A stretch of DNA of 64,000 nt from Oceanibaculum nanhaiense (GTDB lineage Bacteria; Pseudomonadota; Alphaproteobacteria; Oceanibaculales; Oceanibaculaceae): assembly GCF_002148795.1 (NCBI RefSeq), contig NZ_MPOB01000001.1, forward strand, positions 310,001 through 374,000, written 5' to 3'. The notes below the pieces were generated by a model. The model had not been told where the DNA came from and searched no databases. It saw only the letters and a program-made list of their open reading frames with translations. Made by a program: the position numbers and the translations under genes. How positions within the stretch are numbered: the first letter of the stretch is position 1; each line of letters begins with the position of its first letter. This document shows, in pieces, positions 4,461 to 63,188 of this stretch.

Positions 4461-4688
4461 CTGCTCACAGCTTCAGCCCTGCTCTCGCATCTTCCCGGTG
4501 TTCGCTGCCGGTGTTCCCTGATAGCGTCTCTAATGCGCGATAAGGGGATCGCTGTGTCAGAGGCAGGGCAGCGCTGCGTTGACTTGAACCCGGGCGCGGT
4601 CTAAATCAACAGCGTTCCTGAGAAGCGGGCGGCAACCCGCTCTTGTGTAATTGAAATTCGTTCTCACCGCTTTGGCGAAGGGGGCACT

Positions 4689-5475: not shown

Positions 5476-7272
5476 ATGCAGTCCTACAAGATCGTCGATC
5501 ATGCCTATGACGTAGTGGTGGTGGGCGCCGGCGGCGCCGGCCTGCGCGCGACCATGGGCGCCACCATGGCCGGGCTGAAGACCGCCTGCGTGACCAAGGT
5601 GTTCCCGACCCGCAGCCATACGGTGGCGGCTCAGGGCGGCATCGGCGCCGCGCTGAACAACATGAATGACGGCGATAACTGGCAGTACCACATGTACGAC
5701 ACCGTGAAGGGGTCGGACTGGTTGGGTGACCAGGACGCCATCGAATATATGTGCCGCAACGCGATCCCGGCGATCATCGAGCTGGAGCATTTCGGCATGC
5801 CGTTCAGCCGCACCGAGGAGGGCAAGATCTACCAGCGCCCGTTCGGCGGCCACACCACCAACTACGGCGAGGGCATGGCCAAGCGCGCCTGCGCCGCCGC
5901 CGACCGTACCGGCCATGCGCTGCTGCACACGCTCTACCAGCAGTGCCTGAAGCACAAGGCCGAGTTCTTCATCGAATATTTCGCCCTCGACCTGATCATC
6001 GACGAGGAAGGTGAGTGCCGCGGCGTCATGGCGCTGTGCCTCGAGGATGGCAGCATCCACCGCTTCCGCGGGCACCAAGTAGTGCTGGCGACCGGCGGTT
6101 ATGGCCGCGCCTATTTCTCCTGTACCTCGGCGCATACCTGCACCGGCGATGGCGGGGCGATGGTGCTGCGCGCCGGCCTGCCGCTGCAGGACATGGAGTT
6201 CGTGCAGTTCCACCCGACCGGCATCTATGGTGCGGGCTGCCTGATCACCGAGGGCGCGCGCGGCGAGGGCGGCTACCTCACCAATTCCGAGGGCGAGCGC
6301 TTCATGGAGCGCTATGCCCCGAACGCCAAGGACCTGGCCAGCCGCGACGTGGTCAGCCGGGCGATGACGGTGGAGATCAACGAGGGCCGCGGCGTCGGCC
6401 CGAAGAAGGATCATATCCATCTGCATCTGGAGCATCTGGATCCGGCGGTGCTGCATATGCGCCTGCCCGGCATTTCCGAGACCGCCAAGGTGTTCGCCGG
6501 CGTCGATGTGACCAAGGAGCCGATCCCGGTGGTGCCGACCGTGCACTACAATATGGGCGGCATCCCGACCAACTATCACGGCGAGGTGTTCCGGCCGACC
6601 AAGGACGATCCGGATGCCACCATCCCCGGCCTGATGGCGGCCGGCGAGGCGGCCTGCGTGTCGGTGCATGGTGCCAACCGCCTCGGTACCAACTCGCTGC
6701 TCGACCTGGTGGTGTTCGGCCGGGCCTGCGCCAACCGCTGCGGCGAGACGCTGAAGCCGGGCTCCCCGCACAAGCCGCTGCCCGACAGCGCCGGCGAGAA
6801 CGCCATCGCGCGGCTCGACTCGGTGCGCTTCAACAAGGGCGGCACCAAGACCGGTGATGTGCGGCTGAAGATGCAGCATGTGATGCAGCGCCATGCCGCC
6901 GTGTTCCGCGACCAGAATATTCTGGAGACCGGCGTGAAGAACATTCACGAGGTCGCCAGCGGGCTGGTCGATGTGGTGGTGACCGACAAGTCGCTGATCT
7001 GGAACACCGATCTGGTCGAGACGCTGGAGCTTCATAACCTTCTTGGCCAGGCCATCGTCACGCTGGAATCCGGCGAGGCGCGCAAGGAAAGCCGTGGCGC
7101 GCATGCCCGCGACGACTTCACCGAGCGTGACGACGAGAACTGGATGAAGCACACGGTCGCCTGGTGCGATGTCGATAACGGCTTCAAGGTCGATCTGGGC
7201 TATCGCCCGGTGCATCTGAACACCATGTCGAACGAGATCAAGACGATCCCGCCGAAGGCCCGCGTCTACTAA
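5476..7272 (+). CDS. sdhA: Succinate dehydrogenase flavoprotein subunit
   Basis: The 598-residue length is normal for SdhA. The FAD dinucleotide-binding motif [13 protein letters not shown] lies at 13-25, and [10 protein letters not shown] near residue 44 carries the His that binds FAD covalently. [31 protein letters not shown], the substrate-site TEGARGEGG and [19 protein letters not shown] follow in order. It oxidises succinate to fumarate and passes electrons to SdhB. The ATG at 5476 was chosen because it starts the conserved N-terminus and sits just after the sdhD stop; an in-frame start at 5425 lies inside sdhD. Confidence 0.97.
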
Positions 7273-57853: not shown

Positions 57854-58741
57854 TTACTTCGGCTGGGTCTGCTGCGGCGGCAGCGGCTGGCCATCCATGC
57901 TGAACCGTTCGATGGTCGCCTTGGCGCGCAGCTCCGCCAAGATGCGGCGGGCCTCCTGCTCGGCCAGCTCGGCGCGAATCTGTTCGCGTGCCTCGTCCAG
58001 GCTGGGCGGGGCGACGTCGCGGCGGTCGGCAACCTTGATCACATGCCAGCCGAACTGCGACTTCACCGGCTCCTTGCTGTAGGCGCCGGGCGCCAGTTCA
58101 AAGGCGGCTGCGGAGAATTCGGGGACCATCTGTTCGGCGGTGAAATAGCCGAGATCGCCGCCATTGGCGGCACCGGGATCGATCGACTTCTCGGTGGCCA
58201 GCGCGGCGAAGTCGGCACCCTTGTCGAGTTCGCGCACGATGTCCTTCGCCGTCGCCTCGTCCGAGACCAGAATATGGCTGGCGCGGATTTCCTCGGCCTT
58301 GGGCGCCTGCTCCCGCAGTTTCTCGTATTCGGCCTTCACCTTGTCTTCGCTGACCGCCGCTTCCAGCTGGTCGGTCAGGTACTGCTCCTGGATCAGCTGG
58401 TCGCGGTAGCGTTCGACCCGGCGCTTCACCTCGGGGTTCTCGGCGACGCCGGTGGCCTTGGCCTCGCGCTGCAGCAGCTCGCCGTCGATGGCGCGCTCCA
58501 GCAATGCGGGAAACAGCATCTGCATCGGGATGTCGCGGTACTGCTGCGGCAGCGTCGAGATCAGCGCGGCGATATCGCTTTGCCGGATAGTCGTGCCATC
58601 GACGCTGGCGACAATCGGGTCCGCATCGCCGGCGGGGGCGGGCTGCTGCGCCATGGCCGGAATCGCAAGAGCTCCCATGAAGAAGGCACCCACAAAGGCC
58701 CTCACAAAGGCTGGGGCGAAGGATCGAAGGGAATGGCGCAT
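57854..58741 (-). CDS. Parvulin-type peptidyl-prolyl cis-trans isomerase, exported
   Basis: The 295-residue protein has a signal peptide (FVRAFVGAFFMGALAIPAMA), an N-terminal helical chaperone-like part (about 40-150) and a PpiC rotamase domain (about 152-255; IRASHILVSDEATAKDIV, DFAALATEKSIDPGAANGGDLGYF, GAYSKEPVKSQFGWHVIKV). It should assist folding in the periplasm, in the PrsA/SurA manner. The start at 58741 matches the signal peptide. The operon continues with argJ and mutT; on the other side, secA is the original neighbour but a cassette now lies between. Confidence 0.92.
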   Translation of the reverse strand: MRHSLRSFAPAFVRAFVGAFFMGALAIPAMAQQPAPAGDADPIVASVDGTTIRQSDIAALISTLPQQYRDIPMQMLFPALLERAIDGELLQREAKATGVAENPEVKRRVERYRDQLIQEQYLTDQLEAAVSEDKVKAEYEKLREQAPKAEEIRASHILVSDEATAKDIVRELDKGADFAALATEKSIDPGAANGGDLGYFTAEQMVPEFSAAAFELAPGAYSKEPVKSQFGWHVIKVADRRDVAPPSLDEAREQIRAELAEQEARRILAELRAKATIERFSMDGQPLPPQQTQPK

Positions 58742-58899
58742 GGGCTGTCTCGTTTCCTGTTTCTGGCCTGTGGCGTGTGCGGTATTCGGGCGCGGCATTG
58801 TGCCGCCAGCCGGCGGCACGGGGACAGTAGCGCAGCCCGCCGGGCGGCGGAAGGCGCTTTACCGGGCTACTATATGTGGCCCTGCATACCAGAATGGAA

Positions 58900-58921
58900 G
58901 CCGGTCCGCGACCGTGCGCCG
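58900..58921. repeat. Left 22-bp direct repeat flanking the DUF488 cassette
   Basis: A 22-bp sequence with core CGGTCCGCGACCG (itself a CGGTC/GACCG dyad around CGC) occurs here and is repeated perfectly at 60333-60354 in the same orientation. It bounds the cassette on the side of the isomerase operon. Confidence 0.9.
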
Positions 58922-58971
58922 GATACCCTGATCTTATGTTGGAAGAGTGCGTTTTCAGAATGCAGTTATGA

Positions 58972-59751
58972 TTAAAACAGACTGCCCTGAGCCTTTGCGC
59001 TTTCGGATAGTTTGTCGAGACGCAACACGCCGAGAAGTTGCCAGACTTGTGGGCGCTTGGCTTGGTTGCCAATAGCGAAGGCCATCCCGTTCTTGGGGTA
59101 TTCTACGTTAAAAGTGTGGTCCATCCAGTCAAGCACCTCCTTCTCTGGTTGACCCCGGACAAGGCCGTTATAAAACATCGCGTGGGCTTCCCAGTCACCG
59201 TTTGTATAAGTGTGCTCAGCTTCATCATCTCGGAAGTGAAATTTGAACTCGTAGGGAGTGGGTTCGAGTGCCTCAAGTTCCTTATCAAGAAAGGACCACT
59301 GCTTTGCAGCCATGGCATAGGCTGCGCGTTCATCAGCTAAGGCTTCTGATGTCTTGCGCTTATAGAAAAACCGTGGATTGCAAGGTCGGATTAAAGCCAA
59401 AGATTGACCACGGCGTACAGCATCGCCAACGGATAGTAGGATTAGTGGGTTAAGAAGACGCGCTCTTTCTCTCACAGGCATTTTGCCAACAATCTCAATG
59501 CTGTCCTCTTCAACGCTGCAGCTTTCGAGACGTTTATCCTGTTTGGGGCGCCTATATTTGAATCTCACGACATCCCATCGTGAGAAGGCGGTTTCCCCTG
59601 CTAGATGGCGGTATCGTACAGGATATAGACGCTTCCACTGACCATCTAAGGTAATGCCGGCGCAGCAAACAGTTTCGCCATGCTTCTTGCTAGGCTGTGG
59701 CAGTGCCTTGACGAGGACTGTAACTTGGCAGTCGATGGGCGTTACGGACAT
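58972..59751 (-). CDS. Unrecognised protein of the DUF488 cassette
   Basis: The 259-residue product has no membrane helix or signal peptide. Patterned stretches are CQVTVLVKALPQPSKKHGE (8-26), ETVCCAGI (26-33), WKRLYPVRYRHL (39-50), FSRWDVVRFKYRRPKQDKR (56-74), NPRFFYKRK and a C-terminal AMFYNGLV...WQLLGVLRLD. Many basic and aromatic residues with strand-like spacing suggest nucleic-acid binding, perhaps OB-like; this is inference and I cannot place the family. The ATG at 59751 has GGAGA upstream and overlaps the DUF488 gene by 62 bases, so the two are coupled. Confidence 0.7.
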   Translation of the reverse strand: MSVTPIDCQVTVLVKALPQPSKKHGETVCCAGITLDGQWKRLYPVRYRHLAGETAFSRWDVVRFKYRRPKQDKRLESCSVEEDSIEIVGKMPVRERARLLNPLILLSVGDAVRRGQSLALIRPCNPRFFYKRKTSEALADERAAYAMAAKQWSFLDKELEALEPTPYEFKFHFRDDEAEHTYTNGDWEAHAMFYNGLVRGQPEKEVLDWMDHTFNVEYPKNGMAFAIGNQAKRPQVWQLLGVLRLDKLSESAKAQGSLF

Positions 59752-60202
59752 ATCTCTCCGGGGCATCGCCAAAGAGGTTCAGTACCTCAAAGCCGCAGGA
59801 TTTCAGTTCCTCTGCAATGATAGACCGATGGCAATTCACCGGATCTCGTTCAAAGCATAATAGGCAAGTCGGCTGTTGTTCAGCTACTGCCGTTAGCTCC
59901 TTGAGGGATGACTGAGCGCCTTCAGAGTTGAGGTGTGTAGTATAAATAGCACGGAATACATCCTGTTGTCCCGCACGGGCAGCATCTCTACCGGGTTTGG
60001 GGTCGCCGAGAGGTTGAAAAGTTAAATATTCGATCCCTTCGGCTTCTAGGTGGGCTGCCAATGATTTTTTAGAAAAGCCCCTTTTTCGTGAATGGAGCAC
60101 GGCTCTCACATCAGCGAGCCGTTGAATACCAACCGCTTTCAGAGTGGCGACAAATCGCTCAATGTCTGTTCCCTCGTAGCCGATGGTATACAGGATTTGC
60201 AT
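59690..60202 (-). CDS. DUF488 domain protein
   Basis: The 170-residue protein shows the DUF488 pattern: TIGYEG (6-11), LADVRAVLHSRKRGFSKKSL (29-48), GIEYLTFQPLGDPKPGRD, and a Cys/His-rich CLLCFERDPVNCHRSIIAEEL (113-133). DUF488 members are of unknown biochemical function; the conserved arginine, Cys and His suggest catalysis or nucleotide binding. It opens the two-gene cassette, with a palindromic promoter region upstream. The start at 60202 was preferred over 60238 because the conserved domain begins there. Confidence 0.85.
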   Translation of the reverse strand: MQILYTIGYEGTDIERFVATLKAVGIQRLADVRAVLHSRKRGFSKKSLAAHLEAEGIEYLTFQPLGDPKPGRDAARAGQQDVFRAIYTTHLNSEGAQSSLKELTAVAEQQPTCLLCFERDPVNCHRSIIAEELKSCGFEVLNLFGDAPERYVRNAHRLPSYSPRQGTATA

Positions 60203-60265
60203 GTCTTTCCCCCTCTGTTCGCCTGGGCATACACGCATTCGTGGCTTGCGTCATCCCTGCTAGGC

Positions 60266-60281
60266 CACACAATTTTGTGTG
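60266..60281. promoter_or_regulatory. Palindrome CACACAA-TT-TTGTGTG upstream of the DUF488 gene
   Basis: CACACAATTTTGTGTG is a near-perfect 7-bp dyad 64 bases before the DUF488 start, followed by further GTGCA/TGCAC repeats. It could be the operator of the cassette promoter; no regulator gene is inside the cassette. Confidence 0.4.
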
Positions 60282-60332
60282 CATGCTGTGCACATTAGTG
60301 GCGGGTAAAGTTTTTCTGGAGCGGTGCCAACT

Positions 60333-60354
60333 GCCGGTCCGCGACCGTGCGCCG
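60333..60354. repeat. Right 22-bp direct repeat flanking the DUF488 cassette
   Basis: Perfect copy of the repeat at 58900-58921, same orientation, containing the CGGTCCGCGACCG dyad. It lies 24 bases before the -35 element of the secA promoter. Confidence 0.9.
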
Positions 60355-60455: not shown

Positions 60456-63188
60456 ATGTTCGGCGCCATCGCCAGAAACTTGTTCGGCTCATCGAACGAC
60501 CGCGTGGTCAAGCGCCTGCGGAAAAGGGTCGATGCGATCAACGTCCTGGAAGCGGAGCATCAGGCGCTGTCCGACGAAGCGCTGCGCGCCCGCACCGGCG
60601 AGTTCCGCAAGCGGCTGAGCGACGGCGAGACGCTGGACGACATCCTGCCGGAAGCCTTTGCCACGGTGCGCGAGGCATCCCGGCGCACGCTGGGCCTGCG
60701 CCCCTTCGACGTGCAGCTGATGGGCGGCATGGTGCTGCATGAGGGCATGATCAGCGAGATGAAGACCGGCGAGGGCAAGACCCTGGTCGCCACGCTGCCG
60801 GTCTATCTGAACGCGCTGTCGGGCAAGGGTGTGCATGTCGTCACGGTGAATGATTATCTGGCCAGCCGCGATGCCGCCTGGATGGGCCGGGTCTATAATT
60901 TCCTGGGCCTGTCGGTCGGGGTCATCAAGCATGGCATCGAGGAGGATGACCGCCGCGCCGCCTATGCCGCCGACGTGACCTACGGCACCAATAACGAGTT
61001 CGGCTTCGACTATCTGCGCGACAATATGAAGTTCCGGCTGGAGGACATGGTCCAGCGGGATTTCAACTATGCCATCGTCGATGAGGTCGACTCGATTCTG
61101 GTCGATGAGGCGCGCACGCCGCTCATCATCTCCGGCCCGGCCGAGGATTCCTCCGAGCTATACCGGGCGATGAACGTGCTGATCCCGAATCTGGCGCCTG
61201 AGGATTACGAGAAGGACGAGAAGCAGCGCGCCGTGTCGCTGACCGAGGCCGGCACCGAGAAGATTGAGCAGCTGCTGCGCGAGGCGGGCATGCTGACCCA
61301 GGGCGATCTTTACGACATCCACAATGTCTCGCTGGTTCATCACATGAACCAGGCGCTGCGTGCCCACAAGCTGTTCCAGCGCGATGTCGATTACATCGTG
61401 AAGAACGACAAGCTGGTCATCATCGACGAGTTCACCGGCCGCATGATGGAGGGCCGCCGCTATTCCGAAGGGCTGCATCAGGCGCTGGAAGCCAAGGAAG
61501 GCGTGACCATCCAGCAGGAAAACCAGACGCTGGCCTCGATCACCTTCCAGAATTATTTCCGGCTCTATCCGAAGCTGGCCGGCATGACCGGCACGGCGAT
61601 GACCGAGGCGGCGGAGTTCGCGGAGATCTATGGGCTGGAAGTGGTCGAGATGCCGACCAACGTGCCGATGGCCCGCAAGGATGCCGACGACGAGGTCTAT
61701 CGCAGCCAGCGCGAGAAGTTCGACGGCATCATCGAGCTGGTGCGCGACTGCCAGGAGCGCAAGCAGCCGGTGCTGGTCGGCACCGTTTCCATCGAGAAGT
61801 CGGAAATGCTGGCCGAGGCGCTGAAGGCCAAGGGCATCACGCATGAGGTGCTGAACGCGCGCTATCACGAGCAGGAAGCCTTCATCATCTCGCAGGCCGG
61901 CCGGCCGGGCGCTGTCACCATCGCCACCAACATGGCCGGTCGCGGCACCGATATTCAGCTCGGCGGCAATCTGGAAATGGCCTTGGCCGCCCGCCTGCAG
62001 GGGGTCGAGGACGAGGCGGAGATCGCCCGCATCACCGCGGCGGTGACGGCGGAGGTCGAGGAAGGCCAGCGCATCGTAAAGGAGGCCGGCGGTCTCTATG
62101 TGGTCGGCACCGAGCGGCATGAGAGCCGCCGCATCGACAACCAGCTGCGCGGCCGTTCCGGCCGTCAGGGCGATCCTGGCGCGTCCAAGTTCTTCCTGGC
62201 GCTCGACGACGATCTGATGCGCATCTTCGGCTCCGAGCGGATGGAAGGCATGCTGCAGAAGCTGGGGCTGAAGGAAGGCGAGGCCATCGTCCATCCCTGG
62301 ATCAACAAGGCGCTGGAGAAGGCGCAGCAGAAGGTCGAGGCGCGCAACTTCGAGATTCGCAAGCAGCTGCTGAAATACGACGATGTGATGAATGACCAGC
62401 GCAAGGTCATCTACGAGCAGCGCAAGGAGATCATGCGCGCCAAGGAGGTGCAGCAGATCATCCTCGATATGCGCCACGAGGTGGTGGAGGATCTGGTCGC
62501 TTCCTGCATTCCCGCCAACGCCTATGCCGAGCAGTGGGAAGTGGATCGGCTGCATCAGGAGGTCGCCCGCCTGTTCAACCTCGACCTGCCGGTCCAGGAC
62601 TGGGCGAAGGAAGAGGGCATCGCCGACCAGGAGATCCGCGAGCGCATCATCAGCGCCGTGGACCGCAAGATGGCGGAGAAGGTGGCGAATTACGGCGCCG
62701 ACATCATGCGCATGGCGGAAAAGAGCCTGCTGCTGCAGATCCTCGACCAGTGCTGGAAGGATCATCTGCTGCAGCTCGATCATCTGCGCCAGGGCGTATC
62801 TCTGCGCGCCTATGCCCAGAAGGACCCGCTGAACGAGTACAAGCGCGAGGCCTTCCTGCTGTTCGACGGGCTGTTGAGCCGCCTGCGCGAGACCGTGGTG
62901 TCGGTGCTGGCCCATGTCGAGATGCGGGTGAACCGGCCGGAGGATATGCAGCCCCAGCCGCAGGAAATGCACGAGACGCGCCACGATCCGGCGATGGACG
63001 AGCTGGTTGGCGCCGATGGCGAGCCTGCCCCCGCTGGATTCTCGGGCGGTGCCGATCTGCCGGCCCGGCGTATGGCGGCGGCCATCGATCCGAACGATCC
63101 GTCCAGCTGGGGCAAGGTGCAGCGCAATGCGCTCTGCCCCTGCGGTTCAGGCAAGAAGTTCAAGCATTGTCATGGGCAGATCGCGTAG
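60456..63188 (+). CDS. secA: Preprotein translocase subunit SecA
   Basis: The 910-residue protein has all SecA features: Walker [15 protein letters not shown] (about 102-115), [30 protein letters not shown], Walker [19 protein letters not shown] (about 207-224), the preprotein cross-linking domain, [27 protein letters not shown], and the C-terminal zinc tail [17 protein letters not shown]. It drives Sec export with SecYEG and binds SecB through its tail. The ATG at 60456 ([11 protein letters not shown]) has GAGGT upstream. Confidence 0.98.

Follow-up and report, generated by a model that had tools for sequence, protein, structure and literature searches.

A recent insertion of the candidate defence pair PDC-M19 between two housekeeping genes of Oceanibaculum nanhaiense, with flanking repeats that are probably a target-site duplication

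How single defence operons enter chromosomes when they bring no mobility genes is poorly understood. In Oceanibaculum nanhaiense, a stretch of 64,000 nucleotides (hereafter the window) raises this question in a simple form, i.e., two small genes stand between a peptidyl-prolyl isomerase gene and the divergently transcribed secA, and are enclosed by two long direct repeats (Table 1). An earlier note, made from the letters alone, had seen there a mobile cassette devoid of its own recombinase that had entered the isomerase-secA interval, and had compared each repeat to a recombinase crossover site. Did such an entry take place, and what are the repeats? We show here that the cassette is a recent arrival, and we argue that this foreign PDC-M19 cassette probably owes its flanking repeats to the duplication of its target site.

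Table 1. Coordinates of the features of the locus (positions of the window)
Feature	Position	Strand	Basis
Left neighbour, PpiC/SurA-type peptidyl-prolyl isomerase, host gene	57857..58819	-	Pfam Rotamase_3 E 3.5e-23
Left repeat copy, probable target-site duplication	58900..58921	+	Exact match; the G003 empty site has one aligned copy
Inserted cassette, 1,411 bp, 50% GC, without terminal inverted repeats	58922..60332	.	Composition; absent from the G003 interval
Dual-OB-fold protein (predicted), 259 aa, PADLOC PDC-M19B	58972..59751	-	PDLC04508 E 3.2e-30
DUF488 protein, 171 aa, PADLOC PDC-M19A	59690..60205	-	PDLC04505 E 2.6e-27; Pfam
Upstream region of the gene pair, 127 bp, inside the insert	60206..60332	-	DNA homology of the insert with L040, the closest of the related loci, ends at 60242
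Right repeat copy	60333..60354	+	Exact match
Right neighbour, secA, host gene	60456..63188	+	Pfam SecA_DEAD E 6.7e-133

The two copies of the repeat, GCCGGTCCGCGACCGTGCGCCG, are found at the positions where they had been noticed, in the same orientation and identical at 22 of 22 positions, and they form the longest exact repeat of the window. Given the dinucleotide composition of the window, 0.002 matches of 22 bp are expected by chance over all pairs of positions, and 0.0002 within 3 kb. The DNA that they enclose corresponds well to the 1.4 kb of lower-GC sequence with only two genes described in the earlier note: it measures 1,411 bp, has a GC content of 50% (versus 65% for the genome), and holds only two credible genes, which overlap and are both carried by the minus strand. 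The GC3 of these genes is 0.46 and 0.51, against 0.83 for the isomerase gene and 0.86 for secA. The edges of the insert lie around 50 bp past the stop codon of one gene and 127 bp ahead of the start codon of the other, and this 127-bp upstream region has no second copy in the genome. Neither of the two genes encodes a recombinase or an integrase, and we saw no remnant gene of a larger element in the insert. Its terminal inverted repeats are not significant, 12.7% of random pairs doing as well as the best end-to-end match. Just outside the right repeat, where a good secA promoter had been proposed, a TTGACA-containing block is indeed present upstream of secA and conserved in three congeners, but it escaped a simple sigma-70 scan.

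These three congeners (G001, G002, and G003) were compared with the source genome (G000, 3.84 Mb in 40 contigs). The closest of them, G003, presents a clean empty site, with no cassette and a single copy of the repeat that matches at 16 of the 22 positions. When the flanks of the window are joined with one copy of the repeat, they align with G003 without interruption (86.6% identity over 366 columns). The DNA identity with this congener reaches 88% in the isomerase flank and 92% in the secA flank, the N-terminal third of secA being 94% identical; the isomerase-side flank is common to G000 and the three congeners. In G001 and G002, the intergenic region is too diverged for the exact site to be placed and carries no cassette. 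The gene pair was not detected anywhere in the three congeners, and it is present in only 5 of the 190 other relatives searched. The two copies of G000 are identical to each other, and each shows 6 differences from the G003 copy over its 22 positions; the duplication is therefore most likely younger than the split between G000 and G003. The cassette is a recent insertion on the G000 lineage, and the polarity and the recency of the event are established along with the event itself. The comparison of the isomerase-secA interval between relatives, proposed in the earlier note, thus bears out the entry of a cassette without its own recombinase; neither of the two outcomes that it had listed as contrary was found, i.e., relatives all carrying the two genes, or a repeat belonging to a family present at many loci.

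What did this insertion bring into the chromosome? Both models of PDC-M19, a computational candidate anti-phage system, are strongly matched by the adjacent and overlapping genes, which fit its two components, with the difference that the M19A models, of 234-294 positions, exceed the protein in length and align with it only by their C-terminal part. Judged by these matches, the genes belong to this known candidate defence pair, on which our literature search found no paper. The first protein matches DUF488 (PF04343, E 7.6e-29, 101.2 bits for a gathering cut-off of 22.2) and, above the gathering cut-off, the “active” subclade DUF488-N3a (PF22751, E 3.6e-09), this latter match spanning only the C-terminal half. 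Its C-x-E-x5-C-H-R motif is intact, and C117, E119, C125, H126, and R127 are invariant in 49 relatives. DUF488 has been assigned to the rhodanese-phosphatase superfamily. The best structural matches of the AlphaFold2 model of this first protein (pLDDT 93.9) are the N-domains of tetrapyrrole and diphthine methylases and, slightly lower, PRL phosphatases, with Z scores of 8.4-9.6, a level that may reflect only a common arrangement. The model of the second protein (pLDDT 91.4) gives OB matches at Z around 8 over residues 1-103 and an RMI1-type OB match at Z 7.5 in its second half; its matches, weak but consistent, include RPA, SSB, RecO, telomere-binding proteins, and HIN-200 DNA sensors. Its predicted fold may, like that of DuOB (PF22557), be a dual OB, but its Pfam score of 15.4 bits stays below the 27-bit gathering cut-off. 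Neither protein has a significant relative in a sequence search of the PDB. From these models, it is reasonable to regard the 259-aa protein as a predicted nucleic-acid-binding partner, and the pair as a putative partnership between a protein that recognises nucleic acids and an enzyme.

The pair is widespread. By scanning 84,980 species genomes, we confirmed 151 relatives, and the best 80 of the 151, which were kept, come mostly from Alphaproteobacteria, to judge from the titles of their records. The viral scan yielded 34 relatives, and 25 plasmid records carry weaker ones, all below 60% identity. Among the 111 loci with known gene positions, both genes are present in 110 and adjacent in 108, where they usually overlap, and the nearest neighbours that we sampled are varied (DNA methylases, PmbA/TldD, thiC, transporters, integrases, and resolvases, with Phage_integrase and Resolvase genes among them). 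The pair is therefore a conserved two-gene unit found at many unrelated places. It is often lower in GC than its flanks, and it is also found in prophage-like and integrase-bearing contigs. In a group of loci (L047, L050, and L060-L065), the related pairs have conserved flanks, among whose genes are a methyltransferase-like one and, in L064, a large serine recombinase; these pairs probably travel as cargo on a mobile element that bears defence genes.

We then have to consider what the repeats are. Perfect repeats of around 20 bp at both ends of an insert that has no transposase are typical of the att cores of integrases. The repeats could thus be the attL and attR cores of a site-specific integration carried out in trans by a tyrosine or serine recombinase, all the more because some of the related pairs lie on integrase-bearing elements. 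Several observations make this reading unlikely. The repeat was not seen to recur: at up to 3 mismatches, the G000 genome gave no further copy; a search of 2.9 million viral contigs gave no 20-mer match; and, in 384 other genomes of the class, matches with up to 2 mismatches were no commoner than those of a reversed control pattern. The search near other small gene pairs, which had also been suggested, retrieved no copy near 110 related cassettes, even with 5 mismatches allowed. Moreover, the putative core has not been kept in the G003 empty site, and the target lies between genes, in DNA that differs among the congeners, rather than in a conserved gene. The CGGTC-CGC-GACCG dyad, on which the crossover-site reading had been founded, is really present in the repeat, but it is broken in the G003 copy and carries no weight as a sign of a recombinase site, because the window contains 117 perfect dyads of this 5-3-5 type, i.e., one per 547 bp. 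Finally, the GC content of the repeat (86%) is host-like, unlike that of the insert. As the repeat is non-recurrent and host-like in composition, a target-site duplication fits better than a recombinase site. The cassette could also be what is left of a larger integrated element that lost its integrase and other genes by deletion and kept only its att repeats and two cargo genes, as the related pairs of prophage-like and integrase-bearing contigs might suggest; the compactness of the insert, the lack of any visible remnant gene in it, and the same want of a conserved site render this origin quite improbable.

Long duplications are known from transposition. The insertion sequences of the IS1202 family can generate target duplications of 16-28 bp (PMC10132070), a length that resembles the 22 bp observed here, and a transposase of this kind, for instance from the IS1202 subgroup, might have moved the cassette in trans. 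However, the Acinetobacter members of this family have terminal inverted repeats of 24-26 bp with TGT/ACA ends, other members being similar, and the insert has neither such repeats nor a transposase gene. In addition, neither G000 nor G003 contains a match to the transpos_ISNCY_2 model (NF033594), which we take to cover the IS1202 group, so that we consider this route very improbable. The chances are slimmer still that the cassette is ancestral and was lost from the relatives: recombination between the direct repeats would likewise leave one copy, but losses would be needed in G001, G002, and G003, and the two copies of G000 should, like the G003 copy, have diverged. Ku-dependent end joining was considered as a means of insertion and rejected, Ku being detected in neither G000 nor G003. 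G001 and G002 have two Ku genes each; end joining would thus seem to have been lost or gained inside a single genus.

Target-site duplication is thus the better reading of the 22-bp repeats, drawn from a single event. The target DNA would have been cut with a stagger of 22 bp, the cassette joined into the staggered break, and the filling of the gaps would have produced the two copies. The agent of cutting and joining would have acted in trans or have left the cell since; with no transposase and no terminal inverted repeats in the insert, no known agent accounts for a 22-bp stagger.

Do such repeats accompany the pair elsewhere? In an exact scan of the related loci, flanking repeats were without obvious excess over shifted windows, as judged by inspection only. 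In a scan tolerating mismatches, 7 of 98 loci reached a score of at least 12, versus 9 of 290 shuffled pairs. Long flanking repeats are hence not a trait of the pair at other loci, where the excess is at most marginal. A close empty site was available for comparison with only one other insertion (G012 versus G193). This insertion lies beside thiC; it has no such repeat, and some intergenic DNA has been replaced there. In the comparison of G038 with G196, no homology was found beyond the mreB side. At a Nitrosospira locus (L099), a direct repeat of 14 bp, TGTGACCCCATAGA, stands close to the pair on both sides (4469-4482 and 5796-5809), and the same motif is also repeated locally upstream.

We also surveyed the source genome for comparable islands, by reading around 2.35 Mb of it in stretches. 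No other low-GC segment combining an exact boundary repeat of at least 17 bp with a comparable drop in GC was found in this part, and the other isolated low-GC islands that it holds lack long flanking repeats. Several of these islands deserve mention in their own right. One consists of a single gene matching PADLOC PDC-S39 (E 4e-101; DUF7380/DUF4209; L260, 8141-10030, G000 C6:57001+), for which no empty site could be made out in G003, as the right flank failed to align there. An HNH endonuclease gene (L226, 5235-6191, G000 C4:171001+) forms an isolated low-GC island at the edge of which the homology of G001 and G002 stops; it occupies the same place in G003 and is therefore an older insertion. 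Another island contains an ORF of 496 aa without any Pfam or PADLOC match, adjoining a uracil-DNA-glycosylase-like ORF (L191, 17243-18733, G000 C2:247001+). Lastly, a low-GC cytosine methyltransferase gene with weakly restriction-like neighbours (L274, 4970-9128, G000 C6:323001+) probably marks a restriction-modification locus.

As for the function of the cassette, the predicted dual-OB protein may recognise the nucleic acid of an invader, or an altered one, and the DUF488 enzyme would then act on the recognised nucleic acid or on a small molecule. The pair is in any case a common candidate defence system with a clear anatomy, i.e., a predicted enzyme and a predicted dual-OB nucleic-acid binder. 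Its insertion beside secA is clean and recent, the empty site is precise and the boundaries are exact, so that the junction can be used for testing mechanisms of joining. We regard the interest of the finding as moderate; it lies in a long, probable target duplication without a visible agent. It is conceivable, though we hold it to be rather improbable, that small recombinase-free defence cassettes are moved by a DNA-joining activity of the host or of an invader, which would make long staggered cuts and leave duplications of around 20 bp and no terminal repeats. If this were true, such a DNA-joining route would be an undescribed way for single defence operons to spread between chromosomes.
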